From: Rhizobium brockwellii
Lineage (GTDB): Bacteria; Pseudomonadota; Alphaproteobacteria; Rhizobiales; Rhizobiaceae
Length of the DNA: 64,000 bases
NCBI RefSeq assembly: GCF_000769405.2
Contig: NZ_CP053439.1
Coordinates: 3,883,501-3,947,500, forward strand
Direction: 5' to 3'
Shown here one piece after another: positions 8,718 through 44,183 of this stretch. The notes below the pieces were generated by a model that saw only the letters and a program-made list of their open reading frames with translations, had not been told where the DNA came from and searched no databases. Positions within the stretch are counted from its first letter, which is position 1. Each line of letters opens with the position of its first letter. Both the position numbers and the translations under genes were made by a program.

Positions 8718-9473
8718 TTGGAAACAATCGAGCGACAGAGCGGGGCCGAAAGCCGCCGCATCGAGCGCCGCCCGCGCGTACGCCGCAACGTCACGGCGGC
8801 GATCGCTCAGGATATCTGTGCGGATCGCTATCCCGCGGGCTCGCCGCTGCCCCGCGAGAACGATCTCTGCGAACTCTATGGCGTCAGCCGCACCGTCATT
8901 CGCGAATCGCTGAAAGTGCTGGAATCCAAAGGCCTTGTCCGTGGCAAGCCGCGCATCGGAACCACCGTCTGCGATAAGGACGACTGGAATATCCTGGACG
9001 CTGACGTGCTTGAATGGATGGGTCCCTATATCAAGGATTTCGACCTGCTCGGCTGCATTCTCGAAGCCCGCCGCACCATCGAGCCGGCAGCCGCCGAATA
9101 TGCCGCCGAGCGCGCCAGCGCCCAGGAGATCGCCGATCTCGACAATGCCTGGCGGCAGATGCGCGACAGCGCCCGCGACCCGGAAAGCTTCACCGATGCC
9201 GACGTCATGTTCCACACGGTGCTGCTCACCGCCAGCCACAATCAGGTCTTTCGCCGGCTGTCGAGCGCCATTCACGCGGCGCTGAAATATGCGCTGCATG
9301 CCTCCAATATCGGTGTCGAGAACCGCGAGGATGCGGTGCTCGTTCACGGTCAGCTGGTCGAGGCCCTGCGCATGCGCGACAAGGCGGGCGCCCGTGAATG
9401 CGCCAACCGCATGCTCGATCTTGCGGTGCGCGATCTAGCCGCCGCCGAAAAAGCGATCGGCAGAACGAGATGA
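8718..9473 (+). CDS. FadR-subfamily GntR regulator of the galactose/galactonate locus
   Basis: Regulator of 251 aa. A winged helix-turn-helix lies at about residues 20-85 (PRENDLCELYGVSRTVIRESLKVLESKGLV) and a helical FCD ligand domain at about 110-230, where the metal/ligand pattern includes DADVMFH and VHGQLVEAL. The start is probably TTG at 8718, placed 5 bases after GGAGAGG. It precedes dgoD by 66 bases and diverges from the transporter operon. E. coli DgoR, which senses galactonate, is of the same subfamily, so a sugar-acid inducer is likely. Confidence 0.87.
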   Translation: METIERQSGAESRRIERRPRVRRNVTAAIAQDICADRYPAGSPLPRENDLCELYGVSRTVIRESLKVLESKGLVRGKPRIGTTVCDKDDWNILDADVLEWMGPYIKDFDLLGCILEARRTIEPAAAEYAAERASAQEIADLDNAWRQMRDSARDPESFTDADVMFHTVLLTASHNQVFRRLSSAIHAALKYALHASNIGVENREDAVLVHGQLVEALRMRDKAGARECANRMLDLAVRDLAAAEKAIGRTR

Positions 9474-36799: not shown

Positions 36800-37861
<1,062 letters not shown>

Positions 37862-40066
37862 TCACAGCGTACAGGATACGCAGCCCTGCACCTCGGTGCC
37901 GGACAGCGCCATCTGGCGAAGGCGAATGTAGTAGATCGTCTTGATGCCCTTCTTCCAGGCATGGATCTGGGCCTTGTTGATGTCGCGTGTCGTTGCCGTG
38001 TCGCGGAAGAACAAGGTCAGCGACAGGCCCTGGTCGACATGCTGGGTCGCCGCCGCATAGGTGTCGATGATCTTCTCCGGCCCGATCTCGTAGGCATCCT
38101 GATAATAGTCGAGATTGTCGTTGGTCATGAACGGCGCCGGATAATAGACACGGCCGATCTTGCCTTCCTTGCGGATCTCGATCTTCGAGACGATCGGATG
38201 GATCGAGGAGGTCGAGTGGTTGATATAAGAGATCGAGCCTGTCGGCGGCACCGCCTGCAGGTTCTGGTTATAGAGGCCGGAGGCCATCACCGCCTTCTTC
38301 AACGCCACCCAATCTTCCTGCGTCGGAATGTGAATGCCTGACGTCTCGAACAGCGCCCTCACCGTCTCCGTCGCCGGCTCCCAGAGCCGGTCGGTATATT
38401 TGTCGAAATATTCGCCGGAGGCATATTTCGAGTTCTCGAAGCCCTTGAAGCTCGTGCCGCGTTCGACCGCCAAAAGGTTCGAGGCGCGGATCGCGTGATA
38501 GGTCACCGTATAGAAATAGATGTTGGTGAAGTCGACGCCTTCCTCGGAGCCGTAGAAGATGCGTTCACGGGCGAGGTAACCGTGCAGGTTCATCTGGCCG
38601 AGGCCGATCGCATGGCTCTCGTCATTGCCCTTCTCGATCGAGGGAACCGAGGAGATGTGGCTCATGTCGGAGACGGCCGTCAGCGCCCGGATCGAGGTCT
38701 CGATCGTCTTGCCGAAATCGGCCGAATCCATTGCCGCGGCGATATTCAGCGAGCCGAGATTGCAGGAAATATCCTTGCCGAGATGTTTGTAGGAAAGGTC
38801 GTCACGATATTCGCTCGCCTCGCTCACCTGCAGGATTTCCGAGCATAGATTGCTCATCGAAATACGTCCGGCGATCGGGTTCGCCCGGTTCACCGTGTCC
38901 TCGAACATGATGTAGGGGTAGCCGCTCTCGAACTGGATTTCGGCAAGCACCTGAAAGAATTCGCGCGCCTTGATCTTCCTCTTGGAGATGCGGGCATCAT
39001 CAGCCATCTCGCGGTATTTTTCCGTCACCGAAATCTCGGTGAAGGGCACGCCATAGACGCGCTCCACGTCATAGGGCGAGAACAGGTACATATCCTCGTT
39101 GTTCTTGGCGAGTTCGAAGGTGATGTCGGGCACGACGACGCCGAGCGACAGCGTCTTGATGCGGATCTTCTCGTCGGCATTTTCGCGCTTGGTATCGAGG
39201 AAGCGCATGATGTCGGGGTGGTGGGCATTGAGATAGACGGCACCCGCGCCTTGGCGCGCACCGAGCTGGTTGGCATAGGAAAAACTGTCTTCGAGCAGCT
39301 TCATCACGGGGATGATGCCCGAGGACTGGTTCTCGATATGCTTGATCGGCGCGCCCGCCTCGCGGATATTCGTCAGTGACAGCGCCACACCGCCGCCGCG
39401 CTTCGACAATTGCAGCGCCGAATTGATCGACCGACCGATCGATTCCATATTGTCCTCGACACGCAGCAGGAAGCAGGAAACCAGTTCACCGCGCTGCTTC
39501 TTGCCGGCGTTGAGGAAGGTCGGCGTTGCCGGCTGGAAGCGGCCGGAAATGATCTCGTCGACCATGTCGCGGGCAAGGGTCTCGTCGCCGCGCGCCAAGG
39601 CCAGCGCCACCATACAGATGCGGTCCTCATAGCGCTCGAGATAGCGCTTTCCGTCGAAAGTCTTCAGCGTATAGCTGGTGTAATATTTAAAGGCGCCGAG
39701 GAAGGTCGGGAAGCGGAATTTCTTGGCATAGGCCTGGTCGAACAGGTCGCGTACGAAGTTGAAGGAATACTGGTCGAGGACCTCCTGCTCGTAATAGCCC
39801 TCGGTCACGAGGTAATCGAGCTTTTCCCGGAGATTGTGAAAGAACACCGTGTTCTGGTTCACATGCTGCAGGAAATATTGCTTGGCAGCCATTCGATCCT
39901 TGTCGAGCTGGATCCACCCCTCGTCGTCATAGAGGTTCAGCATCGCATTCAGAGCGTGGTAGTCGAGCGTTTCCGCCGCTTTCAAAGGACGTTCGCTGGC
40001 GGGATGAGCAAAAGTGTTATGCGGTTTTGCGCCCGCATCCCGCGTCAGAGGTGTTCCTGTGTCCAA
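37862..40066 (-). CDS. nrdE: Class Ib ribonucleotide reductase, alpha subunit
   Basis: NrdE (734 aa) is the catalytic subunit reducing ribonucleoside diphosphates. It lacks the N-terminal ATP cone of class Ia enzymes and ends with the redox pair GCVSCTL, as expected. Active-site cysteines are in VSCFLL and [10 protein letters not shown] and the strand NLCSEI. No ATG lies near the expected N-terminus. The best start is TTG at 40066 ([12 protein letters not shown]), which overlaps the end of nrdI by 22 bases; the next in-frame TTG downstream would remove about 25 residues. Confidence 0.92.
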
Positions 40067-40449
40067 AACCGTTCCATTCCGTGTTTGACGTTGGCGACGT
40101 CGTCTTCCGTGCCCAGCAGCTCGAACCTGTAGAGGTACGGCACCTGGCATTTCTGCGAGACCACGTCACCGGCGAGCCCGTAAGTCTCGCCGAAATTGCT
40201 GTTGCCCGCGGCAATCACGCCGCGGATGTGTCCTCGGTTTTCCGCTTCGTTGAGGAAACGGATCACCTGCTTGGGAACGGCGCCCTTGCCGCCGTCGCCG
40301 CTATAGGTCGGCACGATCAGCACGAAGGGTTCGCGGATATGGAACGCGTCTGCGCCAACTGGCGGAATGCGCGCCGCGCGCAGTCCGAGCTTGGCGACGA
40401 ACCGATGGGTATTCTCGGATCGGCTGGAATAATAGACGATCAGGCCCAT
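40045..40449 (-). CDS. nrdI: Class Ib RNR flavodoxin-like activator
   Basis: NrdI (134 aa) is the flavodoxin-like protein that supplies oxidant for assembly of the manganese-tyrosyl cofactor of NrdF. The FMN-binding pattern is seen in [15 protein letters not shown] near the N-terminus, [13 protein letters not shown] in the middle and GNSNFGETY. It lies 14 bases after nrdH and overlaps the start of nrdE. Typical length for the family. Confidence 0.94.
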
Positions 40450-40463
40450 CGCTTGTCCTCAGG

Positions 40464-40688
40464 TCAGGAGAGCGCGCTGATCATGTCGGGACGGAAGCCC
40501 GCCCAATGCTGCTCGCCGGCGATGACCACAGGCGCCTGCATATAGCCGAGGCTGCGGACGCGATCGAGCGCTTCGGCATCCTCAGAGATATCGACGATGT
40601 CATAATCGACACCCAACCGGTCGAGGGCGCGGTAGGTGGCAGTGCACTGGACGCAGGCAGGCTTGCTGTAGACGGTGATGGTCATCAT
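40464..40688 (-). CDS. nrdH: Glutaredoxin-like electron donor NrdH
   Basis: NrdH (74 aa) is a thioredoxin-fold protein with the redox motif Cys12-Val-Gln-Cys15 and the late signature WAGFRPDMI (residues 62-70), typical of NrdH. It delivers electrons to NrdE. Two adjacent ATG codons (40688, 40685) are possible starts; GAGGAAC precedes them and spacing favours the second. It heads the operon, about 275 bases downstream of a cobalamin riboswitch. Confidence 0.94.
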   Translation of the reverse strand: MMTITVYSKPACVQCTATYRALDRLGVDYDIVDISEDAEALDRVRSLGYMQAPVVIAGEQHWAGFRPDMISALS

Positions 40689-40962
40689 GTTCCTCGTGAT
40701 TCAATGGATTCCGGACGAAAAACGGGGATCGGGCGCCTTGCAGCGTCCGAGGCAAAACTTGGCAATCAATCTGATTAGGGCGGCGCTTCAGGCGCCGGGC
40801 ATTATCCCTTGCAGGATCTGTGCGGGCGGCGGTTTTGATTCTCTCGACATGACTTCAACCCCGAAGTGCTCATGCGGACGTTCGGGGGCAGCGCAACAGA
40901 TGCGGATTTAATCCGCCTGACATGCACAACCTTCCGGACACCCCGCACGTGGACGTTTCGCT
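40689..40962 (-). other. Leader between the cobalamin riboswitch and nrdH
   Basis: No gene is seen. Read on the minus strand the leader holds several hairpins: GCGGATT-A-AATCCGC (40902-40916), CCCCGAA paired with TTCGGGG (about 40858-40886) and CGGCGC-CTGAA-GCGCCG (40781-40797). None has a convincing U tract. The expression platform of the riboswitch should lie here; whether it acts on transcription or on nrdH translation cannot be decided by eye. Confidence 0.5.
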
Positions 40963-41160
40963 CAAGGCAGGTCTCCTGGCTTGCGGGTCGAAGCACCCTG
41001 CCCCCAGCCTTCCCAAAGCATCATGCCTCAGTGACCTGAAATCGGACAGTTGCTCGCCGCTTACAGTTGCGGGGGCAGCTCCGGTCTTGTTTTGCCTTCA
41101 TGGCAAAACGCACCGTATTCCCGTCTTAGCCCGCGATCCTGACGAATCGAAGGAACCTTG
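40963..41160 (-). promoter_or_regulatory. Cobalamin (B12) riboswitch upstream of nrdHIEF
   Basis: On the minus strand the element reads through the main conserved parts in order. GGAGCTGCCCCCGCAACTG and the following TAAGCGG lie at 41057-41082. CACTG precedes GGGAAGGC, and the B12 box AAGCCAGGAGACCTGCC lies at 40966-40982. The ends CAAGG and CCTTG can close the P1 stem. It sits just downstream of a promoter and upstream of nrdH. Cobalamin binding would be expected to lower expression of this B12-independent reductase. Confidence 0.92.
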
Positions 41161-41161
41161 A

Positions 41162-41177
41162 ACACAAGATATAGTAC
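41162..41177 (-). promoter_or_regulatory. NrdR-box-like site
   Basis: ACACAAGATATAGTAC agrees with the NrdR box consensus ACACWATATATWGWGT at 13 of 16 positions. It overlaps the -10 of the nrd promoter. A clear second box at the usual spacing of about 31 bases is not seen. Confidence 0.55.
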
Positions 41178-41198
41178 TCGAATCAAAGTTGACGTCAA
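41171..41198 (-). promoter_or_regulatory. Sigma-70-type promoter of nrdHIEF
   Basis: On the minus strand TTGACG (41193-41198) and TACTAT (41171-41176) are separated by 16 bases. Transcription would start close to the 5' end of the riboswitch, and the NrdR-like site covers the -10. Confidence 0.6.
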
Positions 41199-41436
41199 CG
41201 GATGGTTTGTGCGTCGCGTTACGGCATGTTTGAAATTGCTACATTCCTGTGAAAAACATGGATAACAGCTGGTTAACAGCGGCAGGCTGTGGAGAAGCCT
41301 GCCGAGCCAGGAGCCGGCATATACCGGCTCTCCAGGAATCGATTAGGCGCTCAGGCGCGAGTCGTTGCGGCACTCCGCAACACCCGGGCGGCCGCCACCA
41401 TGTTGACGAGCGCCGGACGTGTGAAAGAAAGAAATG
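41199..41436. other. Spacer after the metal ATPase gene with two hairpins
   Basis: No gene is seen. GGCAGGCT paired with AGCCTGCC (41281-41303) and GAGCCGG paired with CCGGCTC (41311-41330) lie downstream of the P-type ATPase gene, and a third stem GTTGCGG/CCGCAAC follows near 41363. They may end transcription of that gene before the nrd promoter, though U tracts are absent. Confidence 0.4.
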
Positions 41437-43689
41437 CTATATCTTTATTCGAAGCAGCCGCAGTGCGTTGATCGTCACCAGCACGGTGGCGCCGGTATCG
41501 GCGAGGATCGCCGGCCAGAGCCCGGTAATGCCGGCGATCGTCGTCACCAGAAACACCGCCTTCAGCCCAAGTGCGATGGTGATATTCTGCAGGATGTTGC
41601 GCATCGTGCGTTTGGAAAGTTCGATCATCCGCGCCACATCGCCAACGCGTCCGTGCAGCACGGCTGCATCCGCCGTCTCCAGCGCCACATCGGTGCCGCC
41701 ACCCATGGCGATGCCGATATCGGCAGCGGCCAGCGCCGGAGCGTCGTTGATGCCGTCGCCGACCTTGGCGACGACGAAGCCCTGGCGCTTCAATTCGCCG
41801 ACGACCCGCTGCTTGTCCTCGGGCATCATCTCACCGCGCCAGTCGATGCCGAGCATGCCGGCAACGGCTGCTGCCGTCCGCTCGTTGTCGCCTGTCAACA
41901 TCATCGCCTTGACGCCTGCTGATTTGAGGGCAGCGAGCCCAGCCTCGGCATCCTCACGCGGCTCGTCGCGCATGGCGATCAGGCCGGCCGCAACACCGTT
42001 GACGAGCAGCACCGACACGCTCTTGCCCTCGTCGTTCAGCGCCGTGATGCGTGCATCCTGTTCGGCGCTGAGCGTCCCGCGCTCGCGGGCGGCAGGCGGC
42101 GACAGCAGGTCCAGCGTCTCACCGCCGACTTTGCCGCTGACACCCTTGCCCGGCAGCGCCTCCAGCTCGAAGGCCGGCGGCACGGGAACACCATCGGCCT
42201 TGGCACGGTTGAGGATCGCCAGCGCCAGCGGATGGCTGGAGCCTTGCTCCAGCACCGCCGCACGCGACAAGACCTGCGCCTCGCTCAGCCCGAACGAAAT
42301 GATGTCAGTTACCTGAGGCTTGCCTTCCGTCAGCGTGCCTGTCTTGTCGAAGGCGACCATCGTCACCTTGCCGAGCGTTTCCAGCACCGCGCCGCCCTTC
42401 ATCAGCAGCCCGCGCCGCGCACCGGATGAGAGCGAGGCGGCGATTGCCGCCGGCGTCGAGATGACGAGCGCGCAGGGGCAGCCGATCAAAAGGATGGCAA
42501 GGCCCTTATAGACCCATTCGCCCCACGGCCCAGCAAACAGCAGCGGCGGAACGACCGCGACCAGCGCTGCAACGACGACGACGCCGGGCGTGTAATAGCG
42601 CGAGAACCGATCGATGAAGCGCTCGGTCGGCGCCTTCGATTCCTGCGCCTCCTCCACCAGCTTGACGACGCGGGCGATGGTATTGTCGGCTGCAGCCGCC
42701 GTGACGCGAACCCTGAGCACCGCGTCGCCATTGACCGTGCCGGCAAAAACGACGGCATCGACGCCCTTGCGCACCGGCGTGCTCTCGCCCGTCACCGGCG
42801 CCTCGTCGATCGCGCTCTCGCCGGAAACAATGATGCCGTCGGCCGAGATTCGGTCGCCTGGACGAACCATGATGATGGCGCCGACCGAAAGGCTTTCCGC
42901 CGGCACCTCCCGCGGCTGCCCATTGTCTTCGAGCAGCGCGGTCTTCGGCACCAGCGCTGTCAGCGACTGGATGCTTTCGCGCGCCTTGCCCGCTGCCACC
43001 CCTTCCAGCAGCTCGCCGACGAGGAACAGGAACACAACGGTTGCCGCCTCTTCGCCGGCATTGATGATGACGGCGCCGACGGCGGCGATCGTCATCAGCA
43101 TCTCGATCGAAAACGGTGTGCCTGAGAGAGCTGCCATGACGGCGCGCCGCGCGATCGGCACCAGCCCGATCAGCATGGCGACGATGAAAGCGTAGGACGC
43201 GATCGCAGGCACCAGATGGCCGACGGCATAGGCGGCAACGAGTGCAGCACCCGAAAGGATGGTCAGCCGGCCCTTCCTACTCTGCCACCAGGGACCGGCC
43301 ATCGGCGCATGGTCGTGCCCGTGCAACCCCTCGATTTCCTTCTCGCCATGGTCGTGAGAATGGTCGTGGTCATGACTTGCATGATCATGGTCATGGCCCG
43401 CGTGATCGCGGTGATCGTGTCCATGGTCGTGACGATGCTGCGAGCTGTGGGCATGCGCAGGCGCAGCGTTTCCGGCAAGCGGTGCGACGGAATAGCCGAG
43501 CCCGGTCACCTTCTTCTCGATCGCCTTGAGATCACTGCTGCCATCGTGCCGGACGGTCATCGTGCCCGCCATCACCGAAACGGAAACATCGGCGACGCCC
43601 GCCACGCGCCTGACCGCCGTATCGATCTTGGTTGCGCAGGAGGCGCAATCCATGCCGCCAACCCGGTATCGTGTTTCGCCCTCAGCCAT
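41437..43689 (-). CDS. Heavy-metal P1B-type ATPase (Zn/Cd/Pb exporter, ZntA/CadA type)
   Basis: Inner-membrane exporter of 750 aa. An N-terminal metal domain has GMDCASC (Cys15, Cys18), followed by a His/Asp-rich linker (about residues 80-125) with many HDH repeats. The transport motif is Cys404-Pro-Cys406, then DKTGT, the SSHPLA segment and MLTGDN. The last membrane region has GLKAVFLV and ILADTGATV, whose Lys and Asp mark the Zn/Cd/Pb group rather than copper pumps. The ATG at 43689 follows AAGGAAGCGGATC; a TTG at 43707 is possible. A MerR regulator is divergent. Confidence 0.92.
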   Translation of the reverse strand: MAEGETRYRVGGMDCASCATKIDTAVRRVAGVADVSVSVMAGTMTVRHDGSSDLKAIEKKVTGLGYSVAPLAGNAAPAHAHSSQHRHDHGHDHRDHAGHDHDHASHDHDHSHDHGEKEIEGLHGHDHAPMAGPWWQSRKGRLTILSGAALVAAYAVGHLVPAIASYAFIVAMLIGLVPIARRAVMAALSGTPFSIEMLMTIAAVGAVIINAGEEAATVVFLFLVGELLEGVAAGKARESIQSLTALVPKTALLEDNGQPREVPAESLSVGAIIMVRPGDRISADGIIVSGESAIDEAPVTGESTPVRKGVDAVVFAGTVNGDAVLRVRVTAAAADNTIARVVKLVEEAQESKAPTERFIDRFSRYYTPGVVVVAALVAVVPPLLFAGPWGEWVYKGLAILLIGCPCALVISTPAAIAASLSSGARRGLLMKGGAVLETLGKVTMVAFDKTGTLTEGKPQVTDIISFGLSEAQVLSRAAVLEQGSSHPLALAILNRAKADGVPVPPAFELEALPGKGVSGKVGGETLDLLSPPAARERGTLSAEQDARITALNDEGKSVSVLLVNGVAAGLIAMRDEPREDAEAGLAALKSAGVKAMMLTGDNERTAAAVAGMLGIDWRGEMMPEDKQRVVGELKRQGFVVAKVGDGINDAPALAAADIGIAMGGGTDVALETADAAVLHGRVGDVARMIELSKRTMRNILQNITIALGLKAVFLVTTIAGITGLWPAILADTGATVLVTINALRLLRIKI

Positions 43690-43728
43690 GATCCGCTTCC
43701 TTGTCAAATAGAAGCATCTCTCCTACAT

Positions 43729-43745
43729 CCTCTAGCGACTAGAGG
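43729..43745. promoter_or_regulatory. MerR-type operator between the ATPase and regulator genes
   Basis: CCTCTAG-CGA-CTAGAGG is a perfect inverted repeat of seven-base arms. On the minus strand it lies inside TTGCAC-N19-TAGGAG, the long spacer typical of promoters that MerR proteins untwist. It ends 15 bases before the merR-family start codon. Confidence 0.7.
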
Positions 43746-43760
43746 TGCAAGAGGAAAATC

Positions 43761-44183
43761 ATGAAAAAGATCACGATCGGTGAAGCCGCGCGCCAGAGCG
43801 GCGTCAAGGTGCCGACGGTGCGCTATTATGAAAGCATCGGCCTGCTCGTTGCCCCGAGCCGCAGCGAGGGCAACCAGCGCGCCTTTGAGCCCGCCGATAT
43901 CAGCCGCCTCGCCTTTATCCGCCATGCCCGCGAACTTGGCTTCGAGATCGAGGCGATCCGCACGCTGCTCACCCTGCAGGACGATCCGCACCAGTCCTGC
44001 GCCTCGGCCGACGCCATCGCCAAGGCCCGCCTCGTCGAGGTCGAGCAGCGCATCCGCAGCCTGATGGCGCTGAAGGCCGAGCTGGAAACCATGGTGGAAG
44101 GCTGCGGCCACGGCCGCGTCGACCAATGCCGCGTCATTGAGGTGCTCGCCGACCACGGCCAGTGCACGCATCCGCACCACTGA
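43761..44183 (+). CDS. MerR family metal-responsive regulator (ZntR/CadR-like)
   Basis: Activator of 140 aa. The N-terminal winged helix (TIGEAARQSGVKVPTVRYYESIGLL) and a long dimer helix are standard. Metal-site cysteines are Cys80 (HQSCASAD), Cys115 and Cys123 (EGCGHGRVDQC), and the tail has Cys135 with three His, as in CadR and PbrR-like proteins. It diverges from the heavy-metal ATPase gene and should activate it when Zn, Cd or Pb is in excess. GAGGAAAATC precedes the ATG. Confidence 0.92.
   Translation: MKKITIGEAARQSGVKVPTVRYYESIGLLVAPSRSEGNQRAFEPADISRLAFIRHARELGFEIEAIRTLLTLQDDPHQSCASADAIAKARLVEVEQRIRSLMALKAELETMVEGCGHGRVDQCRVIEVLADHGQCTHPHH

Follow-up and report, generated by a model that had tools for sequence, protein, structure and literature searches.

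What could place a class Ib ribonucleotide reductase under cobalamin control across a leader as long as the one found here? The minus strand of the window (the whole stretch of DNA analysed, 64,000 nucleotides) carries, in order, a promoter, a cobalamin riboswitch, a long leader and the genes nrdH, nrdI, nrdE and nrdF (Table 1). Locus L043 of R. johnstonii 3841 is arranged alike, and S. meliloti may lack the operon. B12 elements before B12-independent reductases were reportedly predicted early (Rodionov 2003, Vitreschak 2003, Nahvi 2004, Borovok 2006). The B12 box lies 277 nt from the nrdH start, a distance that the first-pass annotation of this DNA had put at about 275, with the guess that the leader might hold something extra. 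A conserved short upstream open reading frame (uORF) and a covarying hairpin were indeed found there.

Cobalamin riboswitch and a promoter with an NrdR-box-like site upstream of nrdHIEF

A cobalamin riboswitch with a B12 box and core had been read on the minus strand, and both elements were located on that strand. The Rfam covariance model of the cobalamin family (RF00174) matched over its full length (positions 1-189 of 189; E 3.3e-28 for the whole window), with a score of 115.4 bits against a gathering score of 31.5 bits. The aptamer is followed by a likely P13/L13 hairpin, for which 94.3% of cells are paired, with weak covariation, in alignment A1 (47 of the 64 uORF-bearing leaders described below); the stem in the window itself contains one mismatch. 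The GGGG loop of this hairpin is presumably the kissing-loop partner of L5, and we infer that the same contact forms in the window riboswitch. An sX13 match at 41273-41366 scored 23.7 bits, below its own 50-bit threshold, and was taken as chance.

Table 1. Features of the nrdHIEF locus, in order of transcription (window coordinates)
Feature	Position	Strand	Basis
-35 hexamer TTGACG	41193-41198	minus	read from sequence
-10 hexamer TACTAT	41171-41176	minus	read from sequence; 16-bp spacer to -35
NrdR-box-like operator GTACTATATCTTGTGT	41162-41177	minus	3 mismatches to assumed consensus
Putative transcript start	~41163-41165	minus	position of the -10 hexamer
Cobalamin riboswitch aptamer RF00174	40949-41175	minus	Rfam covariance model, 115.4 bits
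L5 core GCCCCCGCAACTGTAA	41061-41076	minus	read from sequence
B12 box GCCAGGAGACCTGCC	40966-40980	minus	read from sequence
Likely P13/L13 hairpin, GGGG loop	40934-40948	minus	paired cells in alignment A1; stems in relatives
Possible hairpin CCCCGAA...TTCGGGG, would cover uORF Shine-Dalgarno	40859-40887	minus	predicted fold; not above shuffles
uORF Shine-Dalgarno GGGGTTGAAG	40853-40862	minus	anti-SD pairing -7.8 kcal/mol
uORF, 20 codons, MSRESKPPPAQILQGIMPGA	40788-40850	minus	start, Shine-Dalgarno, stop
Putative small hairpin across uORF stop codon GGCGCCTGAAGCGCC	40782-40796	minus	read from sequence
Hairpin H3, covarying, 41-62 nt before nrdH start	40729-40750	minus	alignment A2
nrdH Shine-Dalgarno ACGAGGA	40691-40697	minus	read from sequence; leader alignment
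nrdH	40464-40688	minus	TIGR02194, 103.8 bits
nrdI	40045-40449	minus	TIGR00333, 164.6 bits
nrdE open frame (true start possibly inside)	37862-40150	minus	TIGR04170, 1276.7 bits, residues 63-762
nrdF	36800-37807	minus	TIGR04171, 482.6 bits

The promoter that the first-pass annotation had placed ahead of the riboswitch is present on the minus strand, with both hexamers and the spacer as described, and so is the overlapping NrdR-box-like site, which matches at 13 of 16 positions. Mismatches were counted against what we take to be the NrdR-box consensus. In a scan of the 64-kb window, this was the sole site with three mismatches or fewer. We compared it with relatives' loci that combine a riboswitch with an identified nrdH (79 loci, or 70 distinct leaders once identical ones were removed; L126 and L127, missed by the nrdH motif search, and one of the two L128 riboswitches were left out). 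A box with up to four mismatches occurs in 69 of the 70, and TTGAC or TTGAT stands 16 bp ahead of the -10 hexamer in 66; the conservation of both exceeds chance. The box overlaps the -10 hexamer and the 5' end of riboswitch stem P1, its right half lying on the P1 5' strand, and about 15 bp are common to the operator, the -10 hexamer, the putative start point and the aptamer edge. No clear tandem box was found 31-32 bp away in the relatives' leaders; for a second box 31, 32 or 33 bp upstream, the mean numbers of mismatches were 9.5, 13.5 and 8.7, respectively, compared to 10.1-12.5 at other distances. Further upstream of the riboswitch, at 41437-44183, a Zn/Cd-type P-ATPase lies beside a divergent MerR-family regulator gene.

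The riboswitch accompanies the B12-dependent reductase NrdJ

The closest named records to this NrdE belong to the Rhizobium leguminosarum group. A PF02867 search of the host genome (7.12 Mb in seven contigs) returned two reductase large subunits, NrdE and a 1288-residue frame, and no third. The second is the class II enzyme NrdJ (NF005736, 2320 bits; cut-off 1737) whose presence the first-pass annotation had predicted. NrdR, also sought on its suggestion, is encoded by a single copy (TIGR00244, 150.1 bits; cut-off 124.65). An NrdR-like box with two mismatches lies 174 bp before the nrdJ start, and a scan of the same upstream region (L147) gave no riboswitch match. The genome holds six RF00174 matches, five of them above the cut-off. 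They precede bluB, nrdHIEF, an ABC-transporter binding-protein gene and a cobalamin kinase gene (NF004469), with a sub-threshold match before a cbtA-like gene (called by eye, with no NCBIfam match). A weak match of 36.6 bits on a 260-kb contig (G000:C5:141727-141925; L005, L152) has no assigned gene.

To ask how regularly the riboswitch and NrdJ occur together, NrdI was sought in 120 sampled genomes of the order (4 matches) and 297 of the family (53 matches), for a total of 55 NrdI-bearing genomes. An NrdJ-type frame (1236-1328 aa, PF02867) was present in 38 of these, absent from 16 and doubtful in one (G123). Of the 38 NrdJ genomes, 37 have the riboswitch immediately upstream of nrdHIEF (24 by pattern, 13 by cmscan), whereas it was found before the nrdI-bearing operon in none of the 16 NrdJ-less genomes, each scanned with E up to 0.5; the upstream regions of the nrd operons were also scanned separately by cmscan. 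The sole exception, G269 (L039, L150), has NrdJ and nrdHIEF and no riboswitch. The other four NrdI-bearing sampled members of its genus (g155) lack NrdJ; in these, too, an NrdR-like box is followed by a leader of 300-400 nt that contains no riboswitch. The doubtful frame (G123:C20:42952-45123) has 1528 aa and scores 193.6 bits to the reductase model; it comes from a 2.0-Mb relative with no cobalamin riboswitch match anywhere in its genome (nrd upstream region L129).

Because the sampled genomes are related, we attach no p-value to these counts, and contrasts within genera are the better evidence. In one genus, G370 lacks NrdJ whereas G266, G323 and G408 contrast with it; in another, G378 has NrdJ and stands against G205, G276 and G332; Devosia shows both states (L082 vs. 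L084-L086). Among named genomes (25 of 26 searched, at least four of them coinciding with sampled ones), NrdJ was found in 16 of 16 with the riboswitch and in none of the five Hyphomicrobiales without it. None of four named genomes from outside the order has the riboswitch by pattern, and three lack an NrdJ-type frame. A 923-aa frame in Haematobacter (L109) may be class II, which would make it a counter-case outside the order.

In G370, which lacks NrdJ, two nrd copies are present. Promoter and NrdR-like box survive in one of them (L148) together with a fragment of the aptamer, while B12 box and uORF are unrecognisable; the other (L149:1643-1849) keeps the uORF behind a degraded aptamer of 34.6 bits, just above the gathering score. 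We read this as a riboswitch that has probably been decaying since the B12-dependent enzyme was lost. By eye, the leaders of two NrdJ-less Devosia-type loci, L014 and L086, end in a B12-box-like stretch and the segment that follows it; L014 has no covariance score, and L086, examined by pattern, gave no match.

The co-occurrence with NrdJ and the decay where NrdJ is missing support the switch to NrdHIEF under cobalamin shortage that had been inferred from the locus alone. Very probably, nrdHIEF is held down by B12 and NrdJ preferred, an arrangement that would let the cell use the B12-dependent enzyme while B12 lasts. The sampled genomes offer a clean natural test of riboswitch logic, the switch tracking the B12-dependent reductase and being absent or decaying without it. 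The host carries cobN and probably makes its own B12, and a genome search with TIGR01371 gave no match to MetE, so that a severe B12 shortage would cost methionine too. NrdHIEF would bring relief chiefly when the shortage is partial or when methionine is supplied. In R. leguminosarum 3841, insertions in a cobalamin cluster are reported to have severe effects on minimal medium and moderate ones on rich medium (PMC5118466), which fits, without proving, a B12-free reductase taking over given methionine.

The long leader contains a conserved uORF

In 68 of the 70 distinct leaders, nrdH lies 246-415 nt from the B12 box; in the other two, the distance is about 120 nt (L137, 120 nt; L082, 119 nt). 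Two blocks of the leader are strongly conserved, GTCCACGGGCGGGGTGTCCGG, which corresponds to the likely P13/L13 hairpin, and CTTCGGGGTGAAG. A looser motif revealed, in 64 of the 70, a separate uORF that is 8-28 codons long and stops upstream of nrdH, the commonest lengths being 20 codons (23 leaders) and 11 codons (19 leaders). The CTTCGGGGTGAAG block was found in 62 leaders when up to three mismatches were allowed and no start codon was required, and an ATG follows CTTCGGGGT by 6-8 nt in 60 of these 62; in L137, that ATG is the start of nrdH itself. The exceptions at this place are L026, with GTG, and L128, with neither ATG nor GTG. As for the six leaders outside the count, L017 and L048 seem to bear a uORF that the motif missed, L026 has the GTG start, L137 and L082 are of a direct type with nrdH near the riboswitch, and L128 has none.

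All 64 uORFs close within 28 codons, compared to 61% in shuffled sequence. Using what we take to be the anti-Shine-Dalgarno letters, mean pairing energies were -10.3 kcal/mol for the uORFs (n=64), a value to which the uORF-finding motif itself contributes, -6.1 for nrdH and -3.7 for other ATGs (a sample of 3000 of 7656). The window's own uORF site is weaker (Table 1), at a level reached by 8.5% of other ATGs. A conserved leader peptide was considered and rejected: minimal changes were spread about evenly over the codon positions (47, 58 and 62, each counted over 128 columns, in eight groups of same-length sequences, 45 in all), and endings that recur, RE* for example, seem to reflect conservation of nucleotides as much as of residues. 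Since the peptide is not conserved, the coding nature of the uORF is argued from its start, Shine-Dalgarno sequence and stop only.

The uORF occupies the place of the metE start in sister riboswitches

In relatives, neighbouring sister riboswitches with the same or a similar L13 segment lead into metE (L052, L054, L056, L058, L066, L067, L089 and the plus-strand L128). At the seven loci measured, the metE start is 108-125 nt downstream of the B12 box and adjoins a GGGG-bearing site, GGGGTAAGGAA at six of them or GGGGTATGACA at L066. NCBIfam matches confirm MetE at six of the seven; the L052 frame opens MetE-like and stops after 26 codons. A similar arrangement was seen by eye at L156, L160, L161 and L162. 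The window uORF, with its ribosome site, starts 115 nt after its B12 box, i.e. at the metE-start place, and in one genome (L137/L169) nrdH itself occupies that place with no uORF. This correspondence makes it quite probable that the uORF is the direct target of the riboswitch.

A CCCC strand upstream of the uORF is kept in the consensus (CGCTnCCCC) and could plausibly pair either with L13 or with the uORF ribosome site, which would constitute a switch. In local folds, at least two of four Shine-Dalgarno positions are paired in 64 of 64 leaders and all four in 37; pairing of the uORF Shine-Dalgarno was no higher than with shuffled upstream sequence in these leaders (0.874 vs. 0.870, mean z -0.02, n=64). 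RNAalifold, applied to the region after the aptamer, paired the B12 box with the uORF ribosome site through positions that hardly vary and are uninformative, and gave no consensus pairs in the proximal region. It is the metE leaders, by analogy, that suggest occlusion of the uORF start.

The region between the uORF and nrdH

The uORF stop and the nrdH start are separated by 97-224 nt in the 64 leaders, a gap that is long for simple reinitiation. It contains hairpin H3, for which 81.4% of cells are paired in alignment A2 (42 of the 64 leaders) and seven of eight pairs are changed on both sides somewhere. Changes on both sides occur in 58 cells, a number reached by none of 500 shuffles and compared to 12-30 for slid versions of the structure; because H3 was named by eye, the test favours it. 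Near-identical leaders had been thinned by hand for A2, and the diverged L074, L075, L077 and L136 were omitted along with L063. On all 64 leaders, 79.7% of cells are paired, with 87 both-side changes vs. 12-21 for slid versions.

We rejected an intrinsic terminator at H3, since the alignment has no U-run beside the stem and mostly GAACGNTTT-like sequence instead. The stretch after the uORF averages 33.6% C vs. 24.4% G overall, but carries no clear Rho-site signal: its best 40-nt excess of C over G, 0.207, is below the 0.274 found in the nrdH coding sequence (all means of 64). A pseudoknot between the H3 loop and a downstream GCC, visible by eye in some leaders only, was dropped. The nrdH gene has a Shine-Dalgarno sequence of its own, in which GAGG is unchanged across all 42 aligned leaders.

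Proposed mechanism and alternatives

We consider it likely that the locus is a cobalamin OFF switch on the class Ib reductase, placed behind an NrdR-controlled promoter and acting via the uORF. NrdR would block the -10 region, and once transcription starts the leader would fold. With cobalamin bound, L13 would pair with L5, freeing the CCCC strand to cover the uORF Shine-Dalgarno sequence and leave the uORF untranslated. Without cobalamin, the uORF would be translated, and its translation, rather than its peptide, would permit nrdHIEF expression. For the coupling of the uORF to nrdH, we would put forward any one mechanism only tentatively.

The riboswitch might instead act directly on nrdH as a plain translational or terminator switch, the uORF being an unneeded leftover start from a copied metE-type riboswitch. 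The homology of the platform to metE leaders and the existence of two direct-type leaders, L137 and L082, speak for this, but it is unlikely given that a start codon and strong Shine-Dalgarno sequence are kept in 64 of 70 leaders despite varied spacing, and that nrdH starts 97-224 nt beyond the uORF stop. Nor was a conserved complement to the nrdH Shine-Dalgarno sequence seen by eye, and H3 has no U-run directly after its stem. That GGGGTGA serves as a ribosome standby site for nrdH, with the adjoining ATG incidental, has a rhizobial precedent in the S. meliloti metA SAM-II riboswitch (as described in PMC9373788); we find it less probable still, as nrdH has its own invariant GAGG and the ATG is kept at its 6-8 nt distance in 60 of 62 leaders. 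A functionless relic could be imagined in a host that has cobN and probably makes B12 itself. This is highly improbable for an aptamer that is intact (115 bits), is kept in 37 of 38 sampled NrdJ genomes and is missing or decayed without NrdJ.

Comparison to known systems

Cobalamin riboswitches before 'isozymes of B12-dependent enzymes' are an established category that covers the present use (PMC3766115, whose main text does not contain the term nrd). The closest case by gene is the nrdABS riboswitch of Streptomyces coelicolor, described as controlling transcription and studied in 2006 by Borovok, as cited in PMC4991794. There too a B12-independent reductase is controlled in an organism that also has NrdJ; according to this source the enzyme is class Ia, in contrast to class Ib here, and its account mentions no uORF. 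The closest case by mechanism is the ppe2 B12 riboswitch of M. tuberculosis, which targets the ribosome site of a uORF whose translation is needed for the downstream gene, with L13 likewise near the uORF start region (as described in PMC11260477). According to the same source, the ppe2 uORF and gene overlap at AUGA and the gene lacks a Shine-Dalgarno sequence, whereas nrdH has one and lies behind a gap of 97-224 nt; no such stop/start overlap occurs in the 64 leaders. The phylum and the gene also differ, and its authors label that riboswitch a Class IIb variant (PMC11260477). The pe20 Mbox of M. tuberculosis also controls a small uORF, but it senses Mg and Rho termination was shown for it (as given in PMC12810186), unlike the present leaders with no clear Rho-site signal. 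In the metA SAM-II riboswitch of S. meliloti, a Shine-Dalgarno sequence inside the riboswitch is needed for translation starting 74 nt downstream; it resembles our case as an alphaproteobacterial riboswitch affecting translation at a distance, and differs in its SAM ligand, an in-frame second AUG and a terminator in between (as described in PMC9373788).

In the literature searched, no title or abstract reported a cobalamin riboswitch with rhizobial nrdH, and none of the matches listed reported the riboswitch-uORF combination, its spread in Hyphomicrobiales or the gap between uORF and gene. What we regard as new is the long leader with its uORF, and we do not claim the nrdHIEF riboswitch itself as unpublished. 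If the proposal is true, an essential enzyme would be under a riboswitch-uORF relay in bacteria other than mycobacteria. Riboswitches of ordinary soil bacteria could then work through the passage of ribosomes over a tiny leader frame, one that annotation easily misses and whose peptide is of little consequence, and a leader too long for a normal expression platform would be explained.

NrdR is a sensor of the nucleotide pool, and its control and that by the cofactor B12 would be stacked on one short promoter-leader unit. More broadly, though we would put this somewhat below an even chance, cobalamin riboswitches of Hyphomicrobiales may have been rewired: where the metE type controls a gene start directly, they would gate the translation of a short ORF, and ribosomes on that ORF would license a distant operon, with nrdHIEF as the main case and L003, L050 and L085 looking like more.

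Short ORFs were also noted at other cobalamin riboswitches. In L003, which precedes the ABC-transporter binding-protein gene of the host genome, and in L050 (~9533), an L13-like hairpin leads straight into a Shine-Dalgarno sequence with a short ORF behind it (22 codons in L003, 24 in L050). The L003 gene starts 73 nt after the short-ORF stop, with a hairpin and T-run in between (by eye). In Devosia marina (L085:8683 onward), a metE riboswitch is followed by a 12-codon uORF at 8755. With metE beginning at 8934, or 235 nt beyond the B12 box, the arrangement differs from that in Rhizobiaceae, where the metE leaders are of the direct type.
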